From Lachnospiraceae bacterium (GTDB lineage: Bacteria > Bacillota > Clostridia > Lachnospirales > Lachnospiraceae), in assembly GCA_017476665.1 (NCBI GenBank), contig JAFUZJ010000064.1, positions 1 through 64,000 of the forward strand: a stretch of DNA of 64,000 nt, read 5' to 3'. The notes beneath the pieces are model-generated. The model made no database searches. It was given only the letters and a program-made list of their open reading frames with translations, and was not told where the DNA came from. Position numbers and translations under genes: made by a program. Positions 1-15,943 of the stretch are shown here, one piece after another; within the stretch, counting starts at the first letter, position 1, and the number at the start of each line of letters is the position of its first letter.

Positions 1-2
1 CA

Positions 3-317
3 ATCAATGATGAAAATGAGAGATTGTCACAGATCTACGGTGGCAATTATGCCTTTGTAAAGACCTATCAGGATGCAATCGAAAAATATTCCGCGGATAA
101 GTCAGAGATAGAGAAGATGTTGGTGTATATCTATCATGACATCAAAGATGTGATTGCGGCAGACACTCTGATCGTGCAGGGACGGAAGAATTTTGCGGCT
201 GCGATCAAACACGATGTGACAAAACTTCTCCTGAAAGATGGAGTTTACGCCAAAATCAAGAACTTTTACGATCAGATATTAAGTGAGTTATATACGAATT
301 TACAACTTTTCAGATAA
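3..317 (+). CDS. hsdR: Type I restriction enzyme R subunit, C-terminal fragment
   Basis: The frame is open to the left window edge, so this is the last roughly 104 residues of a longer protein. It holds no helicase or nuclease motif because those lie upstream. The helical end (INDENERLSQIYGG, then a lysine-rich stretch and YTNLQLFR) resembles the C-terminal helical domain of HsdR, which holds the motor subunit on the methylase core. The assignment rests mainly on context: hsdM follows 14 bp later and hsdS after that, which is the usual R-M-S order. A TTG at 24 is only an internal codon and not a start. The identity is probable and the missing upstream sequence would settle it. Confidence 0.75.
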   Translation: MNDENERLSQIYGGNYAFVKTYQDAIEKYSADKSEIEKMLVYIYHDIKDVIAADTLIVQGRKNFAAAIKHDVTKLLLKDGVYAKIKNFYDQILSELYTNLQLFR

Positions 318-331
318 GGGAGCATGGAGAA

Positions 332-2008
332 ATGCCGGATATTTTTACATTAGAGAAAAACATCAAACAGATCATTGATGAATTAAAGGGACTCTGCCAG
401 ACCAACGGACTGGCGAATCAGGCGAGTGAGGAAGTCGTTATCACGTCTGTCTTTCTATACAAATTTTTGAACGATAAATTCATGGCAAATTTGAAGGCGT
501 TTGCGGAGGATATGGGACTTTCCTATGAGGACGTGCTGAAGAATGAGAATTCGGAACTGGACGCATTTTATGACACCAATTCTAATGATGTCGCTTTTAC
601 CTATGACGAGACGATTGAATACCTGATCAATAAGGTTTCCTATAATGAGTTTTATATGTTGTTCGATGATGCGTTGGAGAAGATATCCAATGACAGCAAA
701 AATGAAATCTTTTCAGTGGAGACGGCAGACGGAACGAGAAAGCCTTTGTTTACCAGAATCACAGAAAATGTGGAGGCTTCCAAGAGAAATAATTTCGCGA
801 AAAATATTTTCGGTATCATTAGTCAGGAGAAGTTTGATTTCGGGGAGGCGTTCAAAGGAAACTTTGACTTCTATTCCGCGATTTTCGAATATCTGATCAA
901 GGATTATAATGTGGCGAGCGGCGTCTATGCGGAATATTTCACGCCCCAGGCGATCAGCGCCATCATTGCGAAGATATTGGTGAACATGTCCCCCGTGGAA
1001 GACAAGATTTATGAAATCTATGACCCGTCTGCAGGATCCGGTTCTCTGGTGCTGCATCTGGCACATGAGCTGGGGCAGGGTTCCTTTGGAGATAAAGCAC
1101 AGGTCTACACGCAGGATATCTCCGGCAAATCCTCCCGCTTCCTGCGGATCAATATGCTATTAAACGGGCTTACCAGCTCTTTGGACAATATCATCGAAGG
1201 GGACACGCTGGATACCCCTGCACATTACAATATTCCCCATGAACCCAGTTCGGGGGTAAAACGGTTTGACTACATCACTTCCAATCCGCCGTTCAAGATG
1301 GACTTTTCTTCCACGAGAGACGGTATTGAGCAGAAGTGGGCAGAGTCGGAGGAGCGGGATGGCATCCGGAGATATTTTGCAGGTATCCCGAAGATACCCA
1401 ATGCGAAGAAGGAATCTATGTCCATTTATCTGTGCTTTATCCAGCATATACTCTGGAGCCTGAAGGAGGACGGAAAGGCTGCAATCGTAGTGCCCACAGG
1501 ATTCATCACCGCACAGTCGGGGATTGAGAAGACAATCCGGCAGAAAATCGTGGAGAAGAAATGGCTCAAGGGCGTGATCTCCATGCCGTCTAATATCTTT
1601 GCCAATACGGGCACGAATGTGTCCGTGCTGTTTATTGATAAATCCAATACAGACGGAGATATCATGCTGATCGATGCCTCTAAGCTGGGCAAAAAAGTCA
1701 AGGACGGCAAGAACCAGAAGACCGTATTGAGCGAGGATGAGGTGAAGCGGATTGAGGATACGTTTATTGAGCAGAAGGTGATCGATGATTTCTCTGTGAA
1801 GGTGTCCTATGAGAAGATTACGGAGAAGAATTATTCCTTCTCGGCGGGGCAGTATTTTGAAGTGAAGATTGAGTATGTGGAGTTGTCGGAGGAAGAGTTT
1901 AATCAGAGAATGCGGGAGTATGCGACGAGGCTGAACCAGTTGTTTGCGGAGGGGAAGAAGCTTGAAGAAGATATTGAGGAGAGGTTGGGGGAGTTGAGGT
2001 ATGAGTAG
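332..2008 (+). CDS. hsdM: Type I DNA methyltransferase, M subunit
   Basis: This 558-residue protein is the N6-adenine methylase subunit of a type I restriction-modification system, using S-adenosylmethionine and guided by HsdS. An N-terminal helical HsdM_N region is followed by motif I (DPSAGSGSL from about residue 231) for cofactor binding and the catalytic motif IV SNPPF (N318). A long helical C-terminus contacts HsdS. The length is normal for the family. ATG 332 has a purine-rich site (AAGGGAG) upstream. The stop overlaps hsdS by 8 bp, which implies translational coupling. Its base composition is richer in G and C than the genes that follow it. Confidence 0.95.
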   Translation: MPDIFTLEKNIKQIIDELKGLCQTNGLANQASEEVVITSVFLYKFLNDKFMANLKAFAEDMGLSYEDVLKNENSELDAFYDTNSNDVAFTYDETIEYLINKVSYNEFYMLFDDALEKISNDSKNEIFSVETADGTRKPLFTRITENVEASKRNNFAKNIFGIISQEKFDFGEAFKGNFDFYSAIFEYLIKDYNVASGVYAEYFTPQAISAIIAKILVNMSPVEDKIYEIYDPSAGSGSLVLHLAHELGQGSFGDKAQVYTQDISGKSSRFLRINMLLNGLTSSLDNIIEGDTLDTPAHYNIPHEPSSGVKRFDYITSNPPFKMDFSSTRDGIEQKWAESEERDGIRRYFAGIPKIPNAKKESMSIYLCFIQHILWSLKEDGKAAIVVPTGFITAQSGIEKTIRQKIVEKKWLKGVISMPSNIFANTGTNVSVLFIDKSNTDGDIMLIDASKLGKKVKDGKNQKTVLSEDEVKRIEDTFIEQKVIDDFSVKVSYEKITEKNYSFSAGQYFEVKIEYVELSEEEFNQRMREYATRLNQLFAEGKKLEEDIEERLGELRYE

Positions 2009-3245
2009 GCATAAACTTGGGGATTTATTGAAAATTCAACATGGTTATGCCTTTAAGAGCGATAATTATGTTGCTAAAAGTCAATATAGATTAGTTACAC
2101 TAGGAAATTTTGCAAGTGGAAATAGTTTTAAATACAATGATGAGAAGGCTACTTACTATGGGGCAGAATTTCCAGAAGAGTTTATTTTGAAAGAGGGAGA
2201 TTTAATTATGCCTATGACTGAACAGGTAATAGGATTGTTCGGTAATACGGCGTTTATCCCAGAAACAACAGATTATACTTTTATATTAAATCAGCGCGTG
2301 GGGAAAGTAATTTATGATGAAGGAAAGGTGGATAAATATTATCTACATTATCTATTGGCTACGAGCAGTGTGAAGCAGCAGATTGAAGCTAGGGCGAGCG
2401 GGACAAGACAAAGAAATATATCACCGGAAAATATCTATGATGTGGAAGTGGATATCCCAGATATTAGTGTACAGGAAAAGATAGGACAATTCTTATATTT
2501 GCTAGAAGAAAAGCAAATTATGAATAACAAGACAATTCAAGAACTTGAAATAATGGCAAAGGTCATTTACGATTATTGGTTTTTGCAATATGATTTTCCA
2601 AATGAAGACGGCAAACCATATAAGTCATCTGGTGGCAAGATGGTGTGGAATGAGGAACTGGGGAGGAAGATCCCGGAAGGGTGGAAAGCTGGAAACCTAT
2701 ATGAAATTGCAGATTTTGTAAATGGCTTGGCATGTCAGAAATATAGACCGATTCATGAGAATAGAAAAATACCTGTAATTAAGATCGGTGAAATGCATAA
2801 TGGAATTACCGAATCAACAGAATTTGTTAGGGATGACATACCGGAAAAGAATATCATAAATAATGGGGATATATTATTTTCATGGTCTGCTACACTTGAA
2901 ACTATGATTTGGACAGGTGGCAAGGCGGGATTAAATCAGCATATATTTAAGGTTATTCCTAAATATGCGAAATATTATGTTTTTATGCAACTTTCATCAT
3001 ACATAGTTAATTTTGTGAAAATGGCAGAAGCTAGGAAAACTACTATGGGGCATATAACAACAGATCATATAAAACAAAGCAAGATAGCACTACCCCCAGA
3101 GAGTATTGCGGTGAATTATAGTAAACAGGTAGAGGGGATTTTTGATAAAGTCATTTCCAATAGTGCAACAAACAGAGAAGTTGTGTCTTTGAGAGATTTT
3201 TTGTTGCCATTGCTTATGAATGGTCAAGTAATGTTTAGTAAATAA
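2001..3245 (+). CDS. hsdS: Type I restriction specificity subunit
   Basis: This 414-residue protein is the DNA-recognition subunit that decides which bipartite sequence HsdM and HsdR act on. Two target-recognition domains are visible, about residues 1-150 and 225-390. Each is followed by a helical conserved region (QEKIGQFLYLLEEKQ and the end segment with SLRDFLLPLLMNGQV). The segment around residues 185-225 (YDYWFLQYDFPNEDGKPYKS) is the linker typical of HsdS proteins. It starts inside the end of hsdM. Codon use is markedly more AT-rich than in hsdM, in line with recombination-driven exchange of specificity genes. Confidence 0.93.
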   Translation: MSRHKLGDLLKIQHGYAFKSDNYVAKSQYRLVTLGNFASGNSFKYNDEKATYYGAEFPEEFILKEGDLIMPMTEQVIGLFGNTAFIPETTDYTFILNQRVGKVIYDEGKVDKYYLHYLLATSSVKQQIEARASGTRQRNISPENIYDVEVDIPDISVQEKIGQFLYLLEEKQIMNNKTIQELEIMAKVIYDYWFLQYDFPNEDGKPYKSSGGKMVWNEELGRKIPEGWKAGNLYEIADFVNGLACQKYRPIHENRKIPVIKIGEMHNGITESTEFVRDDIPEKNIINNGDILFSWSATLETMIWTGGKAGLNQHIFKVIPKYAKYYVFMQLSSYIVNFVKMAEARKTTMGHITTDHIKQSKIALPPESIAVNYSKQVEGIFDKVISNSATNREVVSLRDFLLPLLMNGQVMFSK

Positions 3246-3295
3246 GTATTATTTTGATATATCTAAGGGGAAAGAATAATTATGAGGAAAATTAA

Positions 3296-3997
3296 ATGAA
3301 TTTAGAAAGAATTTCAAAATTATACAATAAAATGGTTAGATTTCAGAGTCAACCTAATTGTTTTAATATTCTATTGCTACCGCAAGATATCGTAGGTATT
3401 AAAAGTGACCTAACTGATATATCTCAGGATATATTGAAAATTTTTCCGTATTATAGTCAAGAGTTGGTTCGTCTGCGGGATATTTTATTTTTGCAATATG
3501 GTAATTTTAATTCTGTTGCTTTTGGAGAAGTGTATACTATATTGAAGTTTTTGCAGAGTGATTCCGCAAAATGTGAACAAGATTTTTGGACATATATACA
3601 CCCAAGAATTATTAATTGTTCAAAAGGTCTGTACACAGACGGACATTACGCGGAAGCGGCAGAAAATGCGTTTATAGAAATTAATGCTAGAGTTAAAGAG
3701 TTATATAGGAAAATTACTTCTGATATAAAAGCGCCGGATGGGGCAAAGGCTATGACAGAGGTGTTTTCGGTCAATAATCCATTGTTAAAATTTGAGGACA
3801 TCGCGACGGAGACAGGGTATAACATACAAAAAGGATTTATGCAAATGTAAGAAGGCGCCATGGCGGCATTGAGGAATCCTAAAGCGCATGAAAATTTCCA
3901 GATAAGTGAAGGGGATGCGTTAAGACGATTGATGTTTGCAAGTATGCTCATGTACAAAATTGATGAAGCTGTTATATATACGGGGATTAAGGAATAG
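3296..3997 (+). pseudogene. Ymh/TIGR02391-type (abortive-infection-like) gene with in-frame TAA
   Basis: The first open stretch codes 184 residues ending ...GYNIQKGFMQM and stops at TAA 3848-3850. The same frame stays open from 3851 to TAG 3995-3997 and codes EGAMAALRNPKAHEN and about 30 further residues. That downstream piece holds the most conserved part of the TIGR02391/Ymh family, (F/Y)xGAM-xx-RNPxAHE, so the stop lies inside the conserved domain. The upstream part has the family's HYAEAAENAFIEINARVKEL helix and the DGAKAMTEVFS segment. One base change explains the break. Family members are small helical proteins often found near restriction systems; their activity is not established. Either the gene is dead, it makes a shortened product, or the base is a sequencing error. 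Confidence 0.75.
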
Positions 3998-4015
3998 AAC
4001 ATAAAGGAGAAAACA

Positions 4016-5509
4016 ATGGGAATTCGTGTAAAAATACATAATGTAAAAAACATCGATGATTTTGAATTTGAAATACCTACCGAAAAGGGTTTATATGCTT
4101 TAACAGGTGAAAACGGTTCGGGGAAAAGTACTGTAATTTCATGTGCCGCAGCAGCTTTTTATGTTCCATCATTTTATGATTATTTTGGAAACCCAAGGGA
4201 AGGGGCTTATATTAATTTTGACTTTGAAGGGAAACAGCGAAGTGTCAAGGAAAAAGATGGACGTTGGCAAGCTCCATCAAGGACAGAATTTCTAGGAATT
4301 ACAGGATTTTACGAAGGTAGCATCGTATTTGGAAATCGCTTTAAAGATATAGACTATTCTCTTTTAGGGAAATTAGCGTCTGTTGAAAGAGAAAATTTAA
4401 ATATGGCATCCGATTTTGTAAGAAAAAGTCTTGGTAGTATTCTTCATGATGATGAAGATTACTATAAGAATTTATATGTACTGAAGTATGAAGTCGTTCA
4501 AAAAATGAAATTACAGCGGACTCCATATTATTACGAAAATAAAGGGTCTATGATAAGCCAGCTGAATATGTCAACAGGTGAAAATTTATTGTTGACCATT
4601 TTGTATTCTATTGAAAGACGTATTAAAAAAGTTGTTTATGGAGAAACACCCGCATTTATGTTTCTTGATGAGATAGAATTGGCTCTTCATTCTTCGGCAT
4701 TAAGAAGACTTGTATTCTTTTTAAAGGATATAGCTGAAAAAAATAATACAGTGGTTCTTTTTTCGACACACTCCATAGAATTAATAAGAAGCATTGCACC
4801 AGAACATATATTTTATCTACAAAGACATGTTGATGGAAGTATGGAAACCATAAATCCATGCTATCCAGTGTATGCAACGAGAAATTTGGAATCATCTAAT
4901 TATGGACATGATTATATAATTCTTGTTGAGGATAATTTGGCTAAAATAATTGTTGAAAGAATTTTAAGAGAAAAGAGATTATTATCTAATAAGCGTGTAT
5001 TAGTTATAGCGGTAGGTGGTTGGACGCAGGTGTTGCGGTTTGCTCATGATACTATCAGGTCAAATTTAGCGTTAAGTACAACGAAAATTCTTATTATATT
5101 AGACCGAGATATTAAGGATAGTGTTCCTGGATTTATAAAGAATGAACAGATAGGATTTTCAATTGAGCCTAATTATTTGCCGATTAAGAGCTTAGAAAAG
5201 TATTTGCTAGATAAATTAACGAAGAATATTGATACTACGTTATTTAGGGAATTAAATGACTATTTGTTCCAAAGAAAGTCGCTAGATATTATAGTGAAAG
5301 ATTATATGACTGGGGTGAAAAACAATCAATATAAAGATTCAGAAAAGATTAATAATGGGAAAATACTATATGAAGAATTAAAACATGAGTTACATCAAAT
5401 CAGAAAAGATGATGCAGATTTAGTGGCAATTATAGTAGATTATTTGTTTAGTTCAAAAAGTGCTGAGATTGATGAGTTGACTGCTTTTTTGGAAGAGATA
5501 CTAAAATAA
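4016..5509 (+). CDS. OLD-like ABC-type ATPase with C-terminal TOPRIM domain
   Basis: The 497-residue protein starts with an ABC/SMC-like ATPase core. Walker A GENGSGKST spans residues 31-39, a signature-like MSTGEN lies near 188, Walker B is FLDEIELALH (D218, E219), and the H-loop is FSTHS near 253. After the ATPase comes a TOPRIM-like nuclease domain: E305 (ILVEDN) and an ILDRDI motif (D363, D365), the acidic residues that hold metal in OLD nucleases. The layout is that of the OLD family, whose members include phage P2 Old and the GajA subunit of Gabija. No UvrD-like GajB helicase follows. The next gene 26 bp on is a GHKL ATPase instead. ATG 4016 has a good AAAGGAG site. Codon use is strongly AT-rich. 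Confidence 0.8.
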   Translation: MGIRVKIHNVKNIDDFEFEIPTEKGLYALTGENGSGKSTVISCAAAAFYVPSFYDYFGNPREGAYINFDFEGKQRSVKEKDGRWQAPSRTEFLGITGFYEGSIVFGNRFKDIDYSLLGKLASVERENLNMASDFVRKSLGSILHDDEDYYKNLYVLKYEVVQKMKLQRTPYYYENKGSMISQLNMSTGENLLLTILYSIERRIKKVVYGETPAFMFLDEIELALHSSALRRLVFFLKDIAEKNNTVVLFSTHSIELIRSIAPEHIFYLQRHVDGSMETINPCYPVYATRNLESSNYGHDYIILVEDNLAKIIVERILREKRLLSNKRVLVIAVGGWTQVLRFAHDTIRSNLALSTTKILIILDRDIKDSVPGFIKNEQIGFSIEPNYLPIKSLEKYLLDKLTKNIDTTLFRELNDYLFQRKSLDIIVKDYMTGVKNNQYKDSEKINNGKILYEELKHELHQIRKDDADLVAIIVDYLFSSKSAEIDELTAFLEEILK

Positions 5510-5550
5510 GCACTTCAAAAATTGATTTCAAAGAAATGGAGAAAGATATA

Positions 5551-7548
5551 ATGGCAGAATTTTCTATTGATTTAGCAGGCAGAGTAAAAAATTTTGATTT
5601 ACCTAAGAATCAACCATTAATTCCTTTATTTGAGGCTATTGTAAATTCAATTTATGCAATTGAAGAAAGACAATTAGAAGATAGTAAGAATGGTTATATT
5701 AATATACATATAGTCAGAGAACCACAAGAAGTGGTTGGACTAGATGGAATAAATAAAGAAATAAATGAAATAACGGGATTTACAATTGTTGATAATGGAG
5801 TAGGATTAAATGATTCTAACATGAAATCGTTTTTGCAATCAGATTCTACATATAGAGCAGACAAAGGTGGGAAAGGAGTAGGCAGATTTTCTTGGCTTAA
5901 AGCGTTTTCCAAAGCTGAAATCGAAAGTGTATATAGAGATGAAATTGATAATGTTTGGGTAAAACGAAAATTTGATTTTTCTTTGAATAATCTTTATATT
6001 GATGATAGTTTAGAAGGAATTGATGATGTTCCAGACAACAAAACATGTATTAAATTAATTGATTATTTACCAACATATAGGAAAAATGTAAGTAAGAATG
6101 CAGAAACGATTGCCATGAAAATAATGCAGCATTGTATGATATATCTTATGTCTCCTAAATGTCCTATTATTACTATCTTAGATGAAGAGAAATATTGCAT
6201 TAATGATATGTTTGAGAAAATAATTCAACGAGAGAAAGAGGCTGTCAAGATTCAAATTGGAAAAGAGGAGTTTTCACTTTTAAATACAATGGTACAGGAT
6301 GCTTCATTAGGAGGCAGTAAACTGTTTTTATATGCAAATGACAGGATGGTAAAGCCAATAGATTTGGATAGACAAATCGTGGATTTGGATAAAAATATAT
6401 TTCATGATAAAGGATTTTATTATGTAGGTATTTTATCAGGTAAATATTTAGATAATAATGTAGATATGAACAGAACATCCTTTGATATACCAGAAAATAA
6501 AGAGGAAGGAGAAATCTCTATTGAAGATATTGTAACTTTTGCAAAGTTGCAGGTAGAAGATTATCTGTCAGATTATTTATCAAATGTAAGAGAAACAAAA
6601 AATGAACGTATAAAAAAATATATACATACAAATGCACCACAGTTTAGCCATTTGCTAAAGTATATGCCAGATGCTATAAACATGATAAAACCTACACTTT
6701 CCGATACTAAATTAGATGAGGAACTCTATAAAATAAAACGAAAATTTGATCTAGAATTAAAACAAACAAATGAAGAGATAATTGATAAAATTGATGTCGG
6801 TACTGAAAATTTAGATACATATAAAGATAAGTTTAAGGAACAATTTGAGAAGATAAGTGAGGCTAATAAGGCGGCATTAGCAGAATATGTGGCACATAGA
6901 AAGATTATTCTTGAATTACTAAAAAAGGGCATATTAATAAAAGATGATGGTAAATTTAACCTTGAATCATACGTTCATAACTTGATATATCCGATGAGGC
7001 GAACATCGGATGAAATTGAATTTGAATCACATAATTTATGGCTCATTGATGAAAGATTGGCATATTGCGAATTTATTTCATCAGATGTACCATTTGACAA
7101 TAATCCGAAAGAAAATAGAACTGATATTTTGATGCTAGATAGACCAGTAGCCATTTCAGATGAGGCAAATAATGGAAAAGAGTACGAAACTATTGTTATA
7201 TTTGAACTTAAAAGACCTATGAGAAATGATTACAACTTAGCTGATAATCCTATTGAACAATTATTGGGATATGTAGATAAATTATCTACAAATAAAGTAA
7301 CAGATAAAAATGGACGAATAATAAGAGTTGGGAATAATACACAATTTTATTTATATGCAGTGTGTGATTTAACTTCCAGCTTGATTAAAGTGGCTGAACA
7401 TAATGACTTTAAAGAAACACCTGATAGACTTGGAATGTATAAATATCATGATAAAAAACATGCATATATTGAGATTTTGTCATTTAATAAAATAATAAAT
7501 GACGCAGAAAAAAGAAACCGAATATTGTTTGATAAATTGGGGATTTAA
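5551..7548 (+). CDS. GHKL (Hsp90/MORC-like) ATPase with C-terminal PD-(D/E)XK-like motif
   Basis: This protein of about 665 residues opens with a Bergerat-fold ATPase. The N-box is LFEAIVNSIYAIEE (E28, N32), the G1 box DNGVGL is at residues 81-86, and the glycine lid GGKGVGRFSW at 106-115. A long charged helical middle (about 340-460, coiled-coil-like) leads to a C-terminal region with D525 (RTDILML) and E552-L-K554 (IFELKRP), followed by NPIEQLLGYVDKL. That is the D...ExK pattern of PD-(D/E)XK nucleases. I chose ATG 5551 over ATG 5536 because GGAG lies 9 nt before it. It pairs with the TOPRIM ATPase just upstream. I infer a DNA-acting defence protein; no family name is recognised with certainty. 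Confidence 0.72.
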   Translation: MAEFSIDLAGRVKNFDLPKNQPLIPLFEAIVNSIYAIEERQLEDSKNGYINIHIVREPQEVVGLDGINKEINEITGFTIVDNGVGLNDSNMKSFLQSDSTYRADKGGKGVGRFSWLKAFSKAEIESVYRDEIDNVWVKRKFDFSLNNLYIDDSLEGIDDVPDNKTCIKLIDYLPTYRKNVSKNAETIAMKIMQHCMIYLMSPKCPIITILDEEKYCINDMFEKIIQREKEAVKIQIGKEEFSLLNTMVQDASLGGSKLFLYANDRMVKPIDLDRQIVDLDKNIFHDKGFYYVGILSGKYLDNNVDMNRTSFDIPENKEEGEISIEDIVTFAKLQVEDYLSDYLSNVRETKNERIKKYIHTNAPQFSHLLKYMPDAINMIKPTLSDTKLDEELYKIKRKFDLELKQTNEEIIDKIDVGTENLDTYKDKFKEQFEKISEANKAALAEYVAHRKIILELLKKGILIKDDGKFNLESYVHNLIYPMRRTSDEIEFESHNLWLIDERLAYCEFISSDVPFDNNPKENRTDILMLDRPVAISDEANNGKEYETIVIFELKRPMRNDYNLADNPIEQLLGYVDKLSTNKVTDKNGRIIRVGNNTQFYLYAVCDLTSSLIKVAEHNDFKETPDRLGMYKYHDKKHAYIEILSFNKIINDAEKRNRILFDKLGI

Positions 7549-7624
7549 GGCAGTAGATTTTGAAAAAGTTGCAACCCTGACGCATTAACACCTTATTTGT
7601 TGTAATAATTAGATTCCGGCACCA

Positions 7625-7653
7625 TTGAGGATTAAGACATAATTTGGTATAAT
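7625..7653 (+). promoter_or_regulatory. Promoter of the sce7726-sce7725-RES operon
   Basis: A -35 box TTGAGG (7625-7630) and a perfect -10 box TATAAT (7648-7653) are separated by 17 bp, 33 bp before the start codon. It gives the three-gene set its own vegetative promoter, separate from the hsd operon upstream. Confidence 0.7.
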
Positions 7654-7686
7654 TAAATAGTCTCAAAGAAAGGGGTGATACTATCC

Positions 7687-8541
7687 ATGGAAGTATTTGA
7701 TACATATATGATAAACAAAATGTTCACCGTACCATATTTGGACAAGATGATCAGTGGAAACAGTATCCCTGAATTACTTCATCAATGCAAAAGATATATT
7801 AAAACAGAGGAAGCAACTGTAGGAAGGGCAATCAGCGAAATATACCATTTTATGGATGGAAATTACAGAAACGAGTATTTTTACAAAAATACAATATTAA
7901 ATCAATTAATGATACAAAAGCACGATTTATATAGTACCGCAGCTTTGACAGAGCTACCGATTGGAGAGTCTAAAGCGGATTTTATAATGATAAACGGCAG
8001 AGGTGTGGTTTATGAAATCAAAACCGATTTGGATAATTTAAATCGGTTGGAAAGCCAAATTCATGATTATTACAAAGTATTCAGTTATGTGTGCGTGGTG
8101 ACTGGAAGTAAACAATTGCAACATGTAAAAGAGTGCTTAAAAGAATCCAAAGCTGGCATATATGAGCTGACGGCAAAAGGGAAACTGATATGTCGTAAGC
8201 AAGCTCTTTGTAACAGACAATATCTGTCACATGAGGCAATGTTTCGGGTGTTGCGGAAGGGAGAATTTGAGTCTGTTTTGTTAAAACATTATGGGAAACT
8301 TCCGGAAGTGAACAGTTTTTTGTATTATCGGGAATGTCAAAAGTGGATTGAGAAAATCAATATTGTTACTTTGCAAAAGGATGTGATGGATTGTTTAAAG
8401 GCGCGGACTTTATTGCTTGTGGGAAATAAGTTGGACGAATTGATTCCATATGAACTAAGGTTCTATGCATATTTCTCAAAAAAATATAAAGCCAAATATG
8501 AAGGAATTAACACTTTTTGTACTGAGAGAATGGAGGGGTAG
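7687..8541 (+). CDS. sce7726 family protein, PD-(D/E)XK-like fold
   Basis: This 284-residue protein matches what I know of the sce7726 family, which is of unknown function. The centre holds a restriction-nuclease-like core: ELPIGESKADFIMI and then VVYEIKTDLDNLNRL, giving an acidic residue, D and ExK in order (about residues 95-120). The N-terminus is helical and the C-terminus basic. ATG 7687 is chosen because AAGGGGTG lies 9 nt upstream; a GTG at 7675 falls inside that site. It is the first gene of a tight operon, with the next start 2 bp after its stop. Nuclease activity is inferred from the motif and not known. Confidence 0.7.
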   Translation: MEVFDTYMINKMFTVPYLDKMISGNSIPELLHQCKRYIKTEEATVGRAISEIYHFMDGNYRNEYFYKNTILNQLMIQKHDLYSTAALTELPIGESKADFIMINGRGVVYEIKTDLDNLNRLESQIHDYYKVFSYVCVVTGSKQLQHVKECLKESKAGIYELTAKGKLICRKQALCNRQYLSHEAMFRVLRKGEFESVLLKHYGKLPEVNSFLYYRECQKWIEKINIVTLQKDVMDCLKARTLLLVGNKLDELIPYELRFYAYFSKKYKAKYEGINTFCTERMEG

Positions 8542-8543
8542 AT

Positions 8544-9512
8544 ATGTATTATCCGTATCTTAGGGGAAGACAGAATGAAATGTTATGTTTACGGGAATTA
8601 TTGGATGCAGGGAAATTAAGCGAGAAAGTTACTCCGATTATTGAGCCGGTACGTTTTAATAGTACTTTTTTTTCAACACTTACGAAGTTTATAGAAAATA
8701 ATCGAAAGATCATTCTGATCGTGAACGCTAAAGTAGGCTCATTCAATCAAGAATATGTCGAGATGAAACAGAAGATTGAGACAGAAACCGACGAGAGCAA
8801 AAAGGATAAGATTAAAAGTTTATTAGACACTTATTTAGAATTGCTGAAAGATCCTCATATTCAAAGGGCGTATATTGTAGATCGGCGTATTGTTGCGGAA
8901 ATGGTTGAGGGGAAAAAGAAAGCCGGAGATTATGTTTTGATTAATTTTGAGAACGGAAACTATCAATATTATGAAGAGTATACTAATTTGTTGGAGGCTA
9001 AAATCACATTGATCCCGAAGGACGAAGATTTTAAGGACGAAGTAGGGGGAGATGCGGTTGTTTTAGAAGACGGACTTATAAAGGCAAAGCGTAATGTTGA
9101 TTATATTGAGGCTCCGGATGAGTTTTTCAGCAGGAACCACGTGATTTATGCAAAAAGAGGATATATAGGCTTTTCCGATTATTCTATTGTTGGAAATGTG
9201 TATGAGGAGAGTGGCTTTGCGCCGGTGGCAATCGCAATCCACATTGTGTATTTTGGCAATAAGGAAGAAGTACGGGTACATCATTTTGTATCAGAGTCCA
9301 ATGAAAGTATTTCTGATCCCGCAAGAAAATTTGAAGAAGCAATGAAGAATTTAATGGAATGGGAGCAGTTTGAGGACATTCCAAAGACAATGGGATTGGA
9401 GAGTTTGATCGAATGCTATGATCAGGGGAAATTCCCCGGGTTAGGTGTAATAAAAAAATACTCGCTGATGCATCATATAGAAATGATGGGGAAATATTTA
9501 GAGGACAAATAA
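8544..9512 (+). CDS. sce7725 family (beta-protein-like) protein
   Basis: The 322-residue protein begins YYPYLRGRQNEMLCLRELL, the hallmark start of the sce7725 family, and contains VTPIIEPVR followed by a long alternating helix/strand body that fits a TIM-barrel-like beta-protein fold. No signal peptide or membrane segment is seen. Its role is unknown; sce7725 and sce7726 genes are commonly paired, so they probably act together. It starts 2 bp after the upstream stop and ends directly against the next gene, so the three are co-translated. GGAGGGGTAG supplies the ribosome site. Confidence 0.72.
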   Translation: MYYPYLRGRQNEMLCLRELLDAGKLSEKVTPIIEPVRFNSTFFSTLTKFIENNRKIILIVNAKVGSFNQEYVEMKQKIETETDESKKDKIKSLLDTYLELLKDPHIQRAYIVDRRIVAEMVEGKKKAGDYVLINFENGNYQYYEEYTNLLEAKITLIPKDEDFKDEVGGDAVVLEDGLIKAKRNVDYIEAPDEFFSRNHVIYAKRGYIGFSDYSIVGNVYEESGFAPVAIAIHIVYFGNKEEVRVHHFVSESNESISDPARKFEEAMKNLMEWEQFEDIPKTMGLESLIECYDQGKFPGLGVIKKYSLMHHIEMMGKYLEDK

Positions 9513-10589
9513 ATGATATGTTGTATTAATTGTTTTCGTGATACGGAAATTCGCGCTGCCATAGAAATGGTGGGACGCAGAGGAGACTGTCCAATTTGCA
9601 AGAAAGCGAATACGTGGATTTATGATTCGCAAAAAGATGCAAATAGGACAGATGTGGAAGAAATGCTAAATTCTATTCTGGACATATATGTTCCGGAATC
9701 TGACTTGCCTATTACTTATCCAGATGAAGAAAAAACATATATAGAGGACAGATTGCTAAAAGACTGGAATATATTTTCGGGGACGACAGGAGAGGTGAAA
9801 CAACTGGTGTCTCAGATTGTGGATGAATCATTAGATTTGGACACAAGGATAGATAAGGAGAGAGTTGGCATACCGCAGCTCTTTGACGAGGCGTATTTGA
9901 GGGACCATTCCATAATGGGAAAATACAGTTGGAGTGTTTTCAAGAAATATTTGCGCAATGAAAACAGATTTCACAGTAAATATATTAATCTGGAGATGCT
10001 GGAGTCTGTACTGAAAAGGACAGAAATGATCATTCCGGTTGGTACGAATCTATACAGAGCACGCGTCTCAAATAAAAAAGGGTATACCAGAAAAGAAATG
10101 TGGGCACCTCCGGATGATGTGGCATCTCCGGGAAGAGCAAATTCAAAGGGACAGAGTTGTTTGTATTTATGCAGTAATCGCAAAACAACTGTCAAGGAAA
10201 TCAGGGCGCATGCTTTTGATTATGTCACTATCGCTACTTTTAAATTGAATCGTGATATAAGGATATTGGATTTGAGTTCAATTGTGCATAGCTCGCCTTT
10301 TTATTCAGGTGAAGATAAAGTTGCATATCTGGTAAACGAAAGCAATCTGCGTCAAATACAAAATGACTTGGCAAAGCCGATGAGTAGACTGGATAGTGAG
10401 TTGGATTATTTACCCACGCAGTATATAAGCGACTTTGCAAAATTTCTAGGTTATGATGGAGTAAAGTATTTCAGTACATTTGATAAGACTTCTTACAATG
10501 TGGCTTTGTTTGATTCTTCTGCGTGTAATTGTACATATCATAGAAATTTTTTGATTGGTGATTTGGACTATCGATTGACGGCTGTTTAG
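9513..10589 (+). CDS. Zinc-finger RES-domain protein
   Basis: This is a 358-residue protein whose ATG follows the previous stop codon with no gap. The N-terminus carries a CxxC...CxxC pair (CINC near residue 4 and CPIC near 28), a likely zinc site. The C-terminal half has RES-domain features: LYRARVSNKKGY, then PGRANSKGQSCLYLCSNRKTTVKEIRA, and a late block around PTQYISDFAKFLGYDGVKY. RES proteins characterised so far are toxins that break down NAD+ by phosphorolysis or glycohydrolysis and are normally paired with an Xre-family antitoxin. No Xre-like gene is present here; the two sce proteins are the neighbours. The natural inference is an effector that is kept off until triggered. Confidence 0.72.
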   Translation: MICCINCFRDTEIRAAIEMVGRRGDCPICKKANTWIYDSQKDANRTDVEEMLNSILDIYVPESDLPITYPDEEKTYIEDRLLKDWNIFSGTTGEVKQLVSQIVDESLDLDTRIDKERVGIPQLFDEAYLRDHSIMGKYSWSVFKKYLRNENRFHSKYINLEMLESVLKRTEMIIPVGTNLYRARVSNKKGYTRKEMWAPPDDVASPGRANSKGQSCLYLCSNRKTTVKEIRAHAFDYVTIATFKLNRDIRILDLSSIVHSSPFYSGEDKVAYLVNESNLRQIQNDLAKPMSRLDSELDYLPTQYISDFAKFLGYDGVKYFSTFDKTSYNVALFDSSACNCTYHRNFLIGDLDYRLTAV

Positions 10590-11056
10590 GGGAGATATAT
10601 CCCGCTCAATAATAATGAAATGAGAAAAAATATCAGAGTTTTCCATGCAGTTCGAGAATGGGGGCAATATAAAGATGAATCGTATTTCTGCTTCACAATA
10701 GATTGTTTTTGAATGAGAAGCTACGCAAGCAGAAGATGTCTTAGTGGAAATTCTGAGCTAAAGAGATTGATTCGTATGTATGATCTGCTAAAATATAAAT
10801 AAAAATATCCCGACCAAATCATCCAATAGTGCGAACACCTAGAATCAGTGGGGGGATATATTTATTATTTCCAAATATAACATACCATCATGTATAGTGC
10901 GAACACCACAATTAAGTACAAAGAGATTATAGCAGAGTCTGTGCAGAAATTCAATAGTAAAATATTGGCGAAATAGGAGGATTGGTGTGGAAACGGGAGC
11001 AATGGACTATAAGCCAATAATTATAGAGCAAATAATAAGAATATAGAGGATGAGCG
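10590..11056. other. Gene-poor AT-rich gap inside the defence island
   Basis: These 467 bp hold no convincing gene. A frame from ATG 10620 runs 30 codons to TGA 10710-10712 and continues in frame from ATG 10713 to TAA 10800-10802. Neither piece has a ribosome site or a known match, so it may be a remnant of a decayed gene. Two identical 14-bp copies of ATAGTGCGAACACC occur at 10826 and 10894. The rest shows no clear structure. It looks like a scar between two blocks of acquired genes. Confidence 0.5.
10826..10907. repeat. 14-bp direct repeat pair
   Basis: ATAGTGCGAACACC occurs at 10826-10839 and again at 10894-10907, 68 bp apart, both preceded by a loosely similar (A)TCAT stretch. Only two copies exist. 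They could be recombination footprints or protein sites. Confidence 0.55.
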
Positions 11057-11698
11057 ATGAAATATTCAGGCATGCCCTTCGGAATGTGGGTATTATTTCA
11101 AAAATCATTCCGCCAAAATTTAATCACTGTCCTTGGCTATGATGCGCCCACTGCCAAGCAGATCACTGCATCCGCCAAGCCCAAATACAAATCCATCATC
11201 GCGAAGCTCCCAGAGTTTGAGCCGGAGGACCGCTTTCTCATGAACATTGTAAATTGTGCCATGCTGTCAGCGTTTTGTCTGAGTATGCCTGAGAGACCGA
11301 CGGTGGAGAAGCTGACGGAGTATTATGGGAAGTCCATGATGACAGGTGCCATGAGGTGGTTTTGCAGGCAGAGCGGCAAGAAGAAATTTACCCCCAAAGA
11401 CATTCAGGGGATGAAGGATACGGCGAAGCTCAGGGCGGCCGACCGGAATCCGTACTCATGGAACATGGAGTTTTATGAGTATGAGGACGGGAGCGGTTAT
11501 GAGGCGCGGTTTACAACGTGCGGGATCTGCACGCTGATGAAGGAGCTGGGACTGTATGACTTGGTGCCGGCAATGTGCAGGCTGGATTATACCATGAGCG
11601 AGGCGGGCGGTGCTTCGGAATTTGTGCGGGAGCAGACGCTGGCGTCCGGTGGGGCGTATTGCGACTGCGGGTATAAGAAACTGGAGGTGACGCAATAG
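11057..11698 (+). CDS. L-2-amino-thiazoline-4-carboxylic acid hydrolase family protein
   Basis: The 213-residue protein resembles the ATC hydrolase family, named after an enzyme that opens a thiazoline ring on a route to L-cysteine. Most relatives in gut Clostridia are uncharacterised. The conserved end SEFVREQTLASGGAYCDCGY carries the family's R-QTLA-GG-xCD pattern, and a CGICTL segment precedes it. Cysteines at these places are candidates for catalysis. The start ATG follows GAGGATGAGCG. Its codons are GC-richer than those of the genes before it. The real substrate is unknown. The next gene begins one base after its stop. Confidence 0.65.
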   Translation: MKYSGMPFGMWVLFQKSFRQNLITVLGYDAPTAKQITASAKPKYKSIIAKLPEFEPEDRFLMNIVNCAMLSAFCLSMPERPTVEKLTEYYGKSMMTGAMRWFCRQSGKKKFTPKDIQGMKDTAKLRAADRNPYSWNMEFYEYEDGSGYEARFTTCGICTLMKELGLYDLVPAMCRLDYTMSEAGGASEFVREQTLASGGAYCDCGYKKLEVTQ

Positions 11699-11699
11699 A

Positions 11700-13139
11700 A
11701 TGGCATTAGCAGAGATTATCAAGAATTTAATATCTCGCACTGATGAGGAAGAGTGGTTTGAATTTAAGGAAAACTGGTATGAACCGGATGGGATTGGGGA
11801 ATACATCTCTGCGCTGTCGAATGCAGCCGCTGAAAACGGGGAGGAGTTTGGATATCTTATATGGGGAGTTAGAAATAGTGATCATGCGCTCATAAATACA
11901 AGTTTCAATTTTAATCGAGATGTAAAGAATGAGCCATTGCAGCACTATCTTGCGAGGAAAGTTAAACCGGATTTGAACTTCCGATTTAAGGAAGAAGAGA
12001 TTAATGGCAATAGAGTAGTGGTGCTGATGATTCCAGCAGCAAGGAAAATCCCCACGGAATTTGATAAAGTTCGTTATATCAGAATTGGTTTAAGCAAAGA
12101 GGATGTTCGTAAGTTTCCGGATAGAGAAGCTTATCTGTTTAGTGTTTTGAGAAATGGAATTCCTACCATTGAAAATATGGAATCAGAATATCAGGATCTT
12201 ACCTTTGACAAATTATTTATGTATTATGCGACAAAGAAAGTACCGATTAACCGGAAAACCTTTAAGAAAAACTTGGGATTACTGACAGAAAATGGTAAAT
12301 ATAATTTGATGGCGCAGCTTTTGTCCGACAATAGTCATATTTCTATACGTTTTTTGATTTTTAATGGTACGACAAAGGCGTCAAAGATGTATCTTGTGCG
12401 GGAGTTTGGAAATGAATGTTTATTGATATCGCTTGATAAGATACTGGAATATGGCGAGGTATTGAATGAGCCATAGGCAGATGAACGGAATAGAAGGACA
12501 ACGAGAGATGAGGTGCCTCTTTTTCATGCAGAGGCTTTTTCGGAGGCGGTGATTAATGCTATTTTGCATAATCATTGGGTGGAAGAAAATGCCCCCATGT
12601 TTACAGTGTTCAAAGATAGAATTGAAATATTATCCAGGGGAAAATTGCCACCGAAACAGACTATAGAGGGATTTTACCTTGGAGAGTCTGTTTCGGTAAA
12701 CAAGAAATTGTCTGATTTGTTTTTGCGGCTTCATATCAGTGAGCGTTCCGGAAGGGGTGTGCCGAAGATTGTTGAGGTATACGGAAAAGAAGCAATAGAG
12801 TTTCATGATAATACTATCCTTGTAAAAATTCCGTTAGAGCGGTTAGAGCAGGGGGAAGAAGTAAACGGCGTTAAAAATGTAAAAAAAGCAAACTTCAATC
12901 AAAAAAATGAGCGAAGTTTGAGCGAAGTTTTGAGCGATGTCCTGTCTAAAAAGGATTATGATAAAATGGAACAGATCATTCTATATTTGGAAAAAAATGG
13001 TGAAATTTCTCCTAAAGATGCAGAGCGGGTGACGGGAAAATCGTCGGCAACGGTGAGAAGGTATTTAAAGAGTTTGAGCGAAGTAGGAGTAGTTGTAGCG
13101 TACGGAAGCACCACAAATATTATATATCGTCTTGTGTAA
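11700..13139 (+). pseudogene. AlbA_2/RecG-like ATP-binding transcriptional regulator split by in-frame TAG
   Basis: An AlbA_2 (Schlafen-like) DNA-binding domain lies at residues 1-130 (EEWFEFKENW, then FGYLIWGVRN). The frame stops at TAG 12474-12476 after VLNEP, then stays open in the same frame (ADERNRRTTRDEVPLF) through a HATPase_c_4-type domain (FSEAVINAILHNHW, RIEILSRGKLPP, ERSGRGVPKI) and a C-terminal winged helix (ITGKS-like ATVRRYLKSL). The whole would be 479 residues, the normal length of the family. A CAG-to-TAG change is the simplest cause. A second product could start at GTG 12513, but no good ribosome site precedes it. Intact relatives act as regulators near defence and stress genes. 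Confidence 0.8.
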
Positions 13140-13179
13140 GTGGAAAATAAGTCATTGATAACAGGAGGAAAGACTGCCT

Positions 13180-13290
13180 ATGAACAACAAAAAATTCACC
13201 AAGCTAGCCATTACCTCCATCCTCGGCATTCTGTCCGCCATCAGCGGGGCGGCGGTAGCGGAGTTTGTGAAAGCGTTTAGGAAGGATTGA
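13180..13290 (+). CDS. Small single-span membrane peptide
   Basis: A 36-codon frame (MNNKKFTKLAITS... ending KAFRKD) has an AGGAGG site 11 nt before its ATG. It has a positively charged start, one hydrophobic helix (about residues 10-28, rich in Ala, Ile and Gly) and a basic end. That is a plausible small membrane protein or a toxin-like peptide, but there is no family I recognise. It sits in the gap between the split regulator and the truncated metallo-hydrolase and is co-directional with both. Confidence 0.5.
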   Translation: MNNKKFTKLAITSILGILSAISGAAVAEFVKAFRKD

Positions 13291-13317
13291 GATCAAACAT
13301 CATAGAGGAGGCTTAAT

Positions 13318-13710
13318 ATGACAGAGAACATCACAGAAAATATTACAGTATTTACCCATAACAGTATCCGGATCAGGACCGGAGGCGAGGGCGCCGGAAA
13401 CAGAAATATCTACATCGATCCGTTTCAGATGAAGATTGCGCCGACGGATGCGGATTTTATTCTGATCACGCATGATCACTTTGATCATTTTTCGGTGGAA
13501 GATATTGAGAAAGCGGCGTGTGATCACACGATTCTGGTGGTGCCGGAGAAGATGCGGGACAAGGCGCAGGAAGCGGCCAAGCTTGTCAGCCAAATCATCA
13601 CGGTGGAGCCGGGAAAATCATATGAGCTGAGCGGGCAGGAGGAAAGGCTGGAGTTTGAAACGGTTCCCGCGTACAACCTGTTGAAGCCTTTCCACCCCAA
13701 GATTCCGTAA
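13318..13710 (+). pseudogene. MBL-fold metallo-hydrolase, 3'-truncated
   Basis: The 130-residue frame has a strong GAGGAGG site and codes the first half of a metallo-beta-lactamase-fold hydrolase of the UlaG-like type. The zinc motif THDHFDH is present near residue 45. The reading ends KPFHPKIP and stops, where relatives of about 210 residues continue with the second half, including the later zinc aspartate and histidine. Nothing resembling that second half follows; the argS promoter begins 12 bp later. The end looks like a deletion or rearrangement point, so an active enzyme is unlikely. Confidence 0.75.
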
Positions 13711-13721
13711 AATACATTCGG

Positions 13722-13750
13722 TTGCAAGAATTCCGAATTTAGGGTATAGT
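13722..13750 (+). promoter_or_regulatory. argS promoter
   Basis: TTGCAA (13722-13727) and TATAGT (13745-13750) are spaced by exactly 17 bp, 38 bp upstream of the argS start. No T-box or other leader fits in the remaining space. Confidence 0.7.
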
Positions 13751-13788
13751 AATAAATATTACCTAACAGGATCAGAGAGGACTTTATC

Positions 13789-15561
13789 ATGAAAAAACTT
13801 TTGGATTTACTCACGGAGGAGATGGGAAAGGCATTCGCGGCAGCAGGCTATGATGCGGCGCTTGGCAAAGTGTCTGTTTCGAACCGTCCGGATCTGTGTG
13901 AATACCAGTGCAACGGCGCGATGGCGGGGGCGAAGCAGTACAAGAAAGCGCCCATTATGATCGCGAACGAAGTGGCAAAAGAATTGCAGGGCGGTCAGGT
14001 GTTTGCCGAGGTGAATGCGGTGGCGCCCGGTTTCTTGAATTTAAAGCTGTCGGAGGCATTTCTGGCAGGCTATATCCGAGAGATGGAAGCGTCTGAGAAA
14101 TTCGGTCTGGACAAGCCGGCTAAGCGGAAGAAGATCATCATCGACTACGGCGGAGCGAATGTGGCGAAGCCGCTGCATGTAGGGCATATCCGTTCTGCGG
14201 TGATCGGCGAGAGTATCAAGCGGATCTGCCGTTATGCGGGACATGAGGTGATCGGCGATGTGCATCTGGGGGACTGTGGCCTGCAGATGGGGCTGGTGAT
14301 CACCGGAGTACAGGATCGTCATCCGGACCTGCCTTATTTTGATGAAAGCTTTACCGGGGAGTATCCTGCAGAGGCGCCGTTTACCATCTCTGAGTTGGAG
14401 GAGATTTATCCCGCAGCCAGTGCCAAGTCGAAGGCTGATTCGGAATATAAGGCCCGTGCCATGGAGGCGACGTTTAAGCTGCAGAGTGGTGTGCGGGGGT
14501 ATCGTGCACTGTGGAAACATATTTTGAATGTGTCGGTGGCGGATCTGAAGAAGAATTACGGCAGCTTGAATGTGGAGTTTGATCTGTGGAAGGGTGAGAG
14601 CGATGTGCATGATATCATTCCGGACATGGTGAAATATATGAAAGAGGGCGGTTACGCTTATATCAGTGACGGGGCGCTGGTGGTAGATGTGAAGGAGGAG
14701 ACGGATACCAAGGAGATGCCTCCCTGCATGATCCTGAAATCGGACGGCGCGTCCCTGTACAATACCACAGATCTGGCGACAATCATGGAGCGTATGAAGC
14801 TGTATCATCCGGATAAGCTGATCTATGTGGTGGATAAGCGGCAGGATCTTTACTTTGAGCAGGTATTCCGCTGTGCCCGCAAGACCAAGCTGGTGGAGCC
14901 GGAAACGGAATTAAAATTCCTGGGCTTCGGCACGATGAATGGGAAGGACGGCAAGCCATTCAAGACCCGTGACGGCGGCGTGATGCGGCTGGAGAATCTG
15001 ATCGCGGACACAAAGGAAGAGATGTATCGGAAGATCAAGGAAGGTCGGGAGATGTCCGACGAGGAGGCGCAGGCTGTGGCGGATATCGTGGCGGTATCGG
15101 CGCTGAAGTATGGCGACCTGTCCAATCAGGCTTCCAAAGATTATATTTTTGACATTGATCGGTTCACTTCCTTTGAGGGAGACACGGGACCTTATATCCT
15201 GTATACGATCGTGCGGATCAAGTCCATTCTGGCCAAGTATAAGGAGCAGGGCGGTGATCTGGAGGCGGCAAAGAAGTCGTTATGTGATGCACAGAATGAG
15301 TCGGAGAAGGCATTGCAGATGCAGATCGCGGGCTTTAACGCCATGATGGAGAACGCCTGCGAGGAGCTGGCGCCCCATAAAGTGTGCGCTTATATTTATG
15401 ATCTGGCCAATGCGTTCAATCATTTTTACCATGAGACCAAGATCCTGGCGGAGGAGGATGCGGCGCGGAAAGCCGGACTGGTGGCGCTGTTGATGCTGAC
15501 AAGGGATGTGCTGGAGGCCTGCATTGATGTTCTGGGCTTTGAAGCGCCGGAGAAGATGTAA
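13789..15561 (+). CDS. argS: Arginyl-tRNA synthetase
   Basis: This 590-residue class I synthetase charges tRNA-Arg with arginine in the cytoplasm. The N-terminal additional domain (residues 1-110) precedes the HIGH signature, here HVGH (130-133, in AKPLHVGHIRSAVIGE). The KMSKS region is degenerate, as usual for ArgS (FKTRDGG). The DALR anticodon-binding domain closes the protein (YIYDLANAFNHFYHETKIL). The length is normal and the ATG follows AGAGAGG. It has its own promoter and is the first clearly core gene after the defence island. Confidence 0.97.
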   Translation: MKKLLDLLTEEMGKAFAAAGYDAALGKVSVSNRPDLCEYQCNGAMAGAKQYKKAPIMIANEVAKELQGGQVFAEVNAVAPGFLNLKLSEAFLAGYIREMEASEKFGLDKPAKRKKIIIDYGGANVAKPLHVGHIRSAVIGESIKRICRYAGHEVIGDVHLGDCGLQMGLVITGVQDRHPDLPYFDESFTGEYPAEAPFTISELEEIYPAASAKSKADSEYKARAMEATFKLQSGVRGYRALWKHILNVSVADLKKNYGSLNVEFDLWKGESDVHDIIPDMVKYMKEGGYAYISDGALVVDVKEETDTKEMPPCMILKSDGASLYNTTDLATIMERMKLYHPDKLIYVVDKRQDLYFEQVFRCARKTKLVEPETELKFLGFGTMNGKDGKPFKTRDGGVMRLENLIADTKEEMYRKIKEGREMSDEEAQAVADIVAVSALKYGDLSNQASKDYIFDIDRFTSFEGDTGPYILYTIVRIKSILAKYKEQGGDLEAAKKSLCDAQNESEKALQMQIAGFNAMMENACEELAPHKVCAYIYDLANAFNHFYHETKILAEEDAARKAGLVALLMLTRDVLEACIDVLGFEAPEKM

Positions 15562-15610
15562 AAATAAAAACTACATCTTTCGGGGGGCCTCTTTTTTGTG
15601 AAAAAAGGGA

Positions 15611-15639
15611 TTGACAAAGCTAAAATCCCATTGTATACT
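15611..15639 (+). promoter_or_regulatory. Promoter of the tRNA-Val/tRNA-Met unit
   Basis: A consensus TTGACA (15611-15616) and TATACT (15634-15639) with a 17-bp spacer, about 28 bp before the first tRNA base. Confidence 0.8.
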
Positions 15640-15667
15640 AACATGGTCGGTTGCAAAATTAACCAAT

Positions 15668-15740
15668 GGAAGTTTAGCTCAGCTGGGAGAGCATCTGCCT
15701 TACAAGCAGAGGGTCATAGGTTCGAGCCCTATAACTTCCA
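15668..15740 (+). tRNA. tRNA-Val (anticodon TAC)
   Basis: A complete cloverleaf of 73 nt: acceptor GGAAGTT pairs with AACTTCC, the D arm is AGCTCAGCTGGGAGAGC, the anticodon TAC is at 15701-15703 in a CTTACAA loop, and the T loop is TTCGAGC. The CCA end is not encoded. Confidence 0.95.
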
Positions 15741-15770
15741 GTTCCGAAACAGTTTTGTTTCGGATCATAT

Positions 15771-15844
15771 GGCGAGATAGCTCAGCTGGCTAGAGCACAC
15801 GGTTCATACCCGTGGTGTCGAGGGTTCAAGTCCCCCTCTCGCTA
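15771..15844 (+). tRNA. tRNA-Met (anticodon CAT, elongator type)
   Basis: A 74-nt cloverleaf: acceptor GGCGAGA pairs with TCTCGCT (one G-U), anticodon CAT is at 15805-15807 in a TTCATAC loop, and the T loop is TTCAAGT. The paired first acceptor base argues against an initiator tRNA. The T stem reads GAGGG against CCCCC, leaving one A-C mismatch. CCA is not encoded. A tRNA-Ile with modified C34 cannot be fully excluded by anticodon alone. Confidence 0.9.
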
Positions 15845-15848
15845 TGAA

Positions 15849-15877
15849 AACCTCCGAAAATTTCGGAGGTTTTTTTG
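15849..15877 (+). terminator. Rho-independent terminator after the tRNAs
   Basis: ACCTCCGAAA and TTTCGGAGGT form a near-perfect stem immediately followed by a run of T residues, 5 bp after tRNA-Met. Confidence 0.9.
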
Positions 15878-15906
15878 TTGGCAATATCTCAATTATGGTG
15901 TATACT
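15878..15906 (+). promoter_or_regulatory. Promoter of the cupin gene
   Basis: TTGGCA (15878-15883) and TATACT (15901-15906) with a 17-bp spacer, directly after the tRNA terminator and 37 bp before the cupin start. Confidence 0.7.
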
Positions 15907-15943
15907 TTGATAAAGCAAAGCTGAAAGTGTGCGGAGGGAAACT

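Follow-up and report, generated by a model that had tools for sequence, protein, structure and literature searches.

The window analyzed here (64,000 nucleotides from the start of contig 37 in a 3.6-Mb Lachnospiraceae genome, base 1 being the contig start) carries two adjacent plus-strand genes of the kinds found in phage defense. Gene 1 (4016 to 5509) is an intact open reading frame (ORF) of 497 amino acids for an OLD-family ABC ATPase with a TOPRIM nuclease domain, assigned from PADLOC, Foldseek and motifs. Gene 2 (5551 to 7548; 665 amino acids) encodes a GHKL ATPase followed by an S5-type transducer and a putative PD-(D/E)XK-type domain, the architecture of paraMORC3 and of type I-D Shedu. 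A preliminary description of the locus had recognized the same domains and proposed that the pair forms a single two-gene defense system. What it observed was confirmed, but the inference of a novel two-gene system is not supported: we think it likely that two independent anti-phage nuclease genes, not an obligate pair, have accumulated behind a type I restriction-modification (R-M) operon in an AT-rich defense island. The GC content of bases 4001 to 8000 is 30 to 31%, versus 43 to 55% in each 2-kb block from 14001 onward, which suggests acquired DNA, and the island was probably acquired. Both genes are further members of families already known. The likelihoods attached to the explanations below overlap; these explanations are not mutually exclusive, and some concern one gene only.

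Gene 2 is intact and may start at either of two ATG codons, at 5551 (665 amino acids) or at 5536 (670 amino acids). The former is likelier because a GGAG motif ends 9 bases upstream of it and several homologs begin at this point. With this start, the coordinates, the shared strand and the 41-bp gap after gene 1 given previously are all borne out. Residues are numbered here from the ATG at 5536, so that D530 and E557-L-K559 correspond to D525 and E552-L-K554 counted from 5551, the positions at which a nuclease-like motif had been noted along with the Bergerat-fold motifs. In an alignment of gene 2 with 52 hand-chosen homologs (45 from the 80 genomic loci described below and 7 others), all 53 sequences were identical at E33, N37, D86, G88, G90, G111, G114, G116 and T170, as well as at R313, E477, D530, E557 and K559. 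Given this invariance, the motifs are not a product of chance.

The structural model of gene 2 had a predicted local distance difference test score (pLDDT) of 84, and its residues from about 8 to 387 matched the folds of MORC2, Hsp90, MutL and gyrase (GyrB). Four ATP-binding GHKL motifs are present in the N-terminal domain, and the S5-type transducer domain follows within the same span of matches. In the C-terminal part, we read the predicted secondary structure around the motif as alpha-beta-beta-beta-alpha-beta. The SduA_C profile, which describes the nuclease domain of Shedu, matched 4 of the 28 C-terminal domains tested from the gene 2 family at E values up to 1 (best, 4e-4), and a profile-profile comparison of this domain with SduA_C gave an E value of 3.1e-6 and a score of 46.9, whereas the best of 60 shuffles scored 20.1. 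The motif, the predicted topology and the remote homology support the assignment of a PD-(D/E)XK-type domain; the profile comparison supports a remote homology, and only that, to the Shedu nuclease domain. Sequence searches of the gene 2 family against PDB returned nothing below an E value of 0.4, and the C-terminal domain alone returned nothing at an E value of 10 or less. The Foldseek and VIA matches listed for gene 2 were all occupied by the GHKL part, and no Shedu chain was among the 50 structure matches listed, which this part filled.

This architecture is already known. In the accessible part of their article, Iyer, Abhiman and Aravind (2008; PMC2292703) described paraMORC3 as a GHKL and S5 module with a C-terminal restriction-endonuclease-fold domain bearing an E-D-ExK motif, found either linked to R-M systems or alone, with a patchy, mobile distribution. 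The likeness of gene 2 to paraMORC3 is one of architecture, by description, and extends to the GHKL and S5 domains and the E-D-ExK C-terminal domain; unlike the case of gene 2, an OLD neighbor is not described in that part of the article. The experimentally characterized protein of this kind is VcSduA, a type I-D Shedu. According to the sections of Adams et al. (2025; PMC12137116) at hand, it combines an N-terminal GHKL domain with a C-terminal PD-(D/E)XK domain and protects Vibrio cholerae and Escherichia coli by itself, ATPase and nuclease residues both being required, with infection curves that fit a mode of action directed at the phage, with survival of the host. Gene 2 has the same fusion of a GHKL N terminus to a PD-(D/E)XK domain (the nuclease being assigned on the grounds given above), with its putative catalytic lysine, K559, at a position similar to that of K557 in VcSduA. 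VcSduA is reported in the same source to carry SduA_C (DUF4263), a domain that gene 2 lacks at the curated cutoff.

The gene 2 family is widespread, with at least 512 genomic and 55 viral stretches, and the closest relative among the matches listed comes from a Lachnospiraceae metagenome-assembled genome. PADLOC-DB 2023 does not recognize gene 2, the best match among the 53 family members tested being 0.0069. A family missed by this catalog in the members tested is thus tied to the characterized VcSduA and could therefore be added to defense-finding tools. A relative of gene 2 lies next to the integrase in the phage vB_RanS_PJN03 (locus L122; ON245412.1, 2485 to 4509); there this GHKL-nuclease homolog is labeled as N-acetylmuramoyl-L-alanine amidase, and the label seems wrong.

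In gene 1, all the previously noted elements were found: a Walker A motif (GENGSGKS), a Walker B motif (FLDEIELALH), an H-loop (STHS) and the TOPRIM acidic residues E305, D363 and D365. In an alignment with 11 relatives, D218, E219, H252, E305, D363 and D365 were invariant in the 12 sequences. Gene 1 is an OLD-family protein, with an ABC ATPase and a TOPRIM domain with its E and DxD in one chain. Its top PADLOC match was ATPase-Toprim_I-B, the retron I-B effector (3.8e-34, residues 1 to 445), with weaker matches to AriA (7.4e-15) and, as the best of the GajA profiles, one at 1.5e-10. Relatives of solved structure, by sequence, include the retron Ec83 and Ec78 ATPases, PtuA, AriA and OLD. The model (pLDDT of 82.5; predicted template modeling score [pTM] of 0.55) matched first the class 1 OLD nuclease 6p74 in Foldseek (E value of 3.2e-12 over 493 columns), with Eco8 also among the top folds, and its VIA matches covered residues from about 1 to 296, barely including the TOPRIM part.

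Several known systems share parts of this layout. In Gabija (GajA-GajB), too, the OLD nuclease gene is followed by another gene, but there the second gene is a UvrD-like helicase and here it is a GHKL ATPase. No helicase was found among the neighbors of gene 1, and membership in Gabija was rejected for want of this partner. The type I-B retron effector (Eco8) has the same ATPase-TOPRIM layout, but such retrons also include a reverse transcriptase (RT) and a retron RNA. No Rfam match to a retron RNA was found in bases 1 to 16000, nor any RT in the window by a crude motif scan or among the gene 1 neighbors, and the retron reading was dropped on the same grounds. A PARIS-like reading was weighed through the PADLOC AriA score alone. 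The class 1 OLD nuclease (TsOLD, 6p74) is, like gene 1, a single protein of about 500 amino acids with the ABC ATPase preceding the TOPRIM domain and no helicase or RT partner, although the two are only 13% identical and superpose poorly over the whole chain. The accessible part of a review (PMC10568477) states that class 1 OLD genes do not lie near other defense genes, unlike gene 1, which sits between a type I R-M system and a GHKL-nuclease gene.

That gene 1 resembles a retron effector most closely by profile, in a place where no RT or retron RNA was detected, could also mean that it is the orphan effector of a degraded retron whose defense function has been lost. We regard this as very unlikely. 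The catalytic residues of gene 1 are all intact, and the same crude scan detected no RT at any of 25 loci of its relatives, one of which is carried by a phage; the relatives without RT and the phage copy indicate that the RT-less form exists in its own right and is not the result of local decay. The phage copy is found at the genome edge of the filamentous Pseudomonas phage PfAC13 (L119, 2492 to 4003), where it is labeled "putative AbiEii toxin" and is apparently cargo. Two relatives on E. coli plasmids have annotated flanks without an R-M, RT or GHKL gene. As a relative of the retron I-B effector that does without an RT, gene 1 bears on a question posed as open in the same part of the review (PMC10568477), namely, whether broad defense against phages can be achieved by a lone OLD protein.

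The proposal of one two-gene system did not survive a comparison of homologous loci. We searched the best 80 of the at least 512 genomic gene 2 loci, which come from many phyla and leave more distant homologs outside the sample, for relatives of gene 1 (flanks of up to 10 kb, blastp at 1e-5). None of the 80 had one, including those with gene 2 relatives 73, 69, 64 and 59% identical. At least 1.8 kb of flank was available upstream in 71 of these loci, downstream in 70 and on both sides in 64. Viral contigs gave the same picture: 137 loci were fetched for either gene, 88 with gene 1, 48 with gene 2 and none with both. The 88 loci represent 72 distinct proteins, some contigs being duplicated, and there was room on both sides in 69 of the 88 gene 1 loci and 31 of the 48 gene 2 loci. 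Among the plasmid matches listed, no accession was common to gene 2 (40 of 56 listed) and gene 1 (49 of 49 at 1e-12). A set of 50,697 phage records contained one match per gene, in different phages. Within a sample of 291 genomes of the class, 5 had gene 2 (E value up to 1e-5) and 2 had gene 1 (up to 1e-20), both together only in the window's own genome. On these counts (0 of 80 and 0 of 137), the adjacency of homologs on which the preliminary description had made its proposal depend is not seen, and the two-gene system was rejected as the leading view.

Several observations weigh against the reading of two independent nuclease genes. On the side of the proteins, the nuclease region of gene 2 has a low pLDDT between residues 520 and 550, the gene 2 protein itself has no SduA_C match in Pfam at E values up to 1, and its likeness to VcSduA is one of architecture and description; for gene 1, the pTM is 0.55 and the whole-chain fit to 6p74 is poor (template modeling score of 0.32, root mean square deviation of 17.9). 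On the side of linkage, the 41-bp spacing, together with a stretch from 3000 to 11200 in which no terminator-like site was found, allows coexpression and cooperation, and the two genes may be cotranscribed. In a sample of 398 genomes of the phylum, gene 1 (E value up to 1e-30) and gene 2 (up to 1e-20) occurred in the same two genomes, the window's own and a distant one, G491. In the latter, an OLD gene precedes the gene 2 relative by 343 bp; aligned over 359 residues, its product shares only 24% identity with gene 1, and that of the GHKL gene is 37% identical to gene 2. At another locus, L092, a different OLD gene follows the gene 2 relative by 199 bp. In G491, we read the pair as lying within an apparent integrative element.

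The short spacing in the window, the order OLD-GHKL in G491 and GHKL-OLD in L092, and the fact that, of 398 genomes of the phylum, the sole two to have one gene also have the other would fit a facultative two-gene system, in which the OLD protein acts as sensor or effector partner of the GHKL clamp-nuclease and which has come together on several occasions, with OLD proteins of different subfamilies. We find this improbable. The OLD partners belong to different subfamilies and stand in different orders, the close relatives of each gene that we examined lack the other, and an OLD-type neighbor at 2 of 85 gene 2 loci is indistinguishable from chance when set against the 40 N6-methyltransferase control loci, which had none (Fisher P = 0.46). 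A more specific version, in which the OLD ATPase-TOPRIM protein and paraMORC3 form a repeatedly assembled, facultative partnership (the window, G491 and L092) and phage sensing by one ATPase would license the nuclease of the other, seems to us quite doubtful; if true, it would be a double-nuclease system outside the catalogs searched. The preliminary interpretation was supported in part: its domain assignments stand, but not its claim of one unrecognized two-gene system. The architecture of gene 2 is that of paraMORC3, and VcSduA defends alone; in favor of the claim, PADLOC-DB 2023 misses gene 2, and OLD genes are paired with gene 2 relatives in G491 and L092. No description of an OLD and GHKL pair was found in titles or abstract openings of the open-license literature, among the matches listed, although one may still be published.

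The comparison with controls is a rough yardstick only. The 85 loci are the 80 genomic ones, 4 from the class sample and G491; gene 2 is located at the very start of the contig or close to it in L017 and L018, and in L020 the copy is broken. The 40 controls were hand-picked from 56 rows, are all clostridial, include 3 from the window's genome and several cut by contig ends, and total 662 kb versus 1,452 kb for the 80 loci. OLD genes were identified by a crude pattern of our own, of which a tighter first version gave no match among the 80 loci and was then loosened once. The looser version detected none in 5 further loci (L010 to L013 and the phage locus L122), in the 48 viral gene 2 loci or in the 40 controls. 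Two candidates, L082 (11097 to 12899) and L072 (4261 to 5871), match OLD profiles yet fail the motif test and were set aside; the latter looks like an ABC transporter ATPase. OLD neighbors at 2 of 85 loci neither establish nor exclude a loose partnership. Weaker and shorter OLD profile matches were seen near gene 2 in L079, L074, L059 and L067. The broken copy of L020 (about 9660 to 10791; G152, clostridial) is a gene 2 relative in pieces that are 54 to 61% identical.

The neighborhoods of gene 2 also bear on its relation to R-M systems. We scanned codirectional neighbors of at least 80 amino acids within 300 bp, which gave 52 upstream and 37 downstream genes for the 80 loci. Upstream, Methylase_S was found in 5, ResIII in 5 and N6_Mtase in 2; downstream, Mrr_cat was found in 3, HSDR_N in 2, AAA_21 in 2 and OLD-like_TOPRIM in 1 (presumably L092). 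Genes similar to hsdM were near 9 of the 80 loci. The relative 73% identical to gene 2 is preceded by an Eco57I-type methylase and the one 69% identical by what we read as methylase- and helicase-like ORFs, in both cases with no OLD gene, which speaks for the independence of gene 2 from gene 1. Gene 2 could also be an accessory of type I R-M, policing unmodified DNA together with HsdRMS, with gene 1 as a bystander, a view compatible with an independent gene 1. Besides the Methylase_S and ResIII genes upstream (5 of 52 each) and the hsdM-like genes, its place behind hsdMS, within one run of genes on a single strand, agrees with this, as does the accessible part of PMC2292703, where paraMORC families are proposed to function in R-M. 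The type of R-M system, however, differs among loci (Methylase_S, Eco57I, or ResIII with RE_endonuc), several gene 2 loci have by our reading no visible R-M gene, among them a plasmid and a phage copy, and VcSduA was protective without a named R-M partner (PMC12137116, in the sections mentioned). On balance, we consider an accessory role rather unlikely.

If gene 1 and gene 2 are independent nuclease genes, as we favor, their modes of action may be sketched from better-known relatives. By analogy with MORC, MutL and VcSduA, ATP binding would close the GHKL dimer of gene 2 on DNA and trap it, and the S5/helical clamp would then position or license the C-terminal PD-(D/E)XK nuclease, with the result that invading DNA is cut. 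Gene 1 would act as a single-gene OLD protein in which, as OLD and retron structures suggest, dimerization of the ABC ATPase gates the C-terminal TOPRIM nuclease, which might be released by an infection cue.

The upstream part of the locus, also on the plus strand, starts with an open ORF (3 to 317) that presumably represents, by position, the final 104 codons of an hsdR gene truncated by the contig start. It is followed by hsdM, the type I R-M methyltransferase (332 to 2008; PF02384, 1.6e-63; PADLOC MTase_I, 7.3e-196), and by hsdS, the specificity subunit (2001 to 3245; PF01420, 6.7e-27; PADLOC Specificity_I, 4.3e-108). Gene 1 is not directly behind these R-M genes, as had been described, since a broken Hypoth_ymh gene (3296 to about 4000) intervenes after hsdS. 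Its two pieces, searched separately, lie in different frames: the first (3296 to 3850; PF09509, 2.6e-13) covers positions 3 to 80 of the 119 in the profile, and the C-terminal one (3857 to 3997; PF09509, 1.5e-05) covers positions 84 to 118. The split (3296 to 3997) means either that the gene is broken or that the assembly is in error here.

Downstream of gene 2, after a 126-bp gap, begins a plus-strand run of three genes (7675 to 10589): an sce7726-family gene (7675 to 8541; NF033832, 6.6e-51), an sce7725-family gene (8544 to 9512; NF033831, 2.7e-93) and a RES-domain gene (9513 to 10589; PF08808, 6.5e-17). Genes of these three kinds occur together on an integrative element of Pseudomonas aeruginosa, according to the accessible part of PMC9394441; for this reason, the trio looks like a separate mobile module, and the sce7726-family gene probably belongs to this downstream module. 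Its product matches the PADLOC profile "cll" (6.5e-16). The 126-bp gap contains a promoter-like site with TG preceding the second hexamer, although such sites are no commoner here than by chance: the promoter scan gave 42 sites versus 40.7 expected. Farther downstream, an SLFN/AlbA_2 ORF is followed by one with HATPase_c_4 and helix-turn-helix domains (11700 to 13139). These domains usually form a single gene, and the two ORFs are possibly a split regulator. Finally, a short ORF at 13318 to 13710 matches just the first part of metallo-beta-lactamase-fold profiles and looks truncated.

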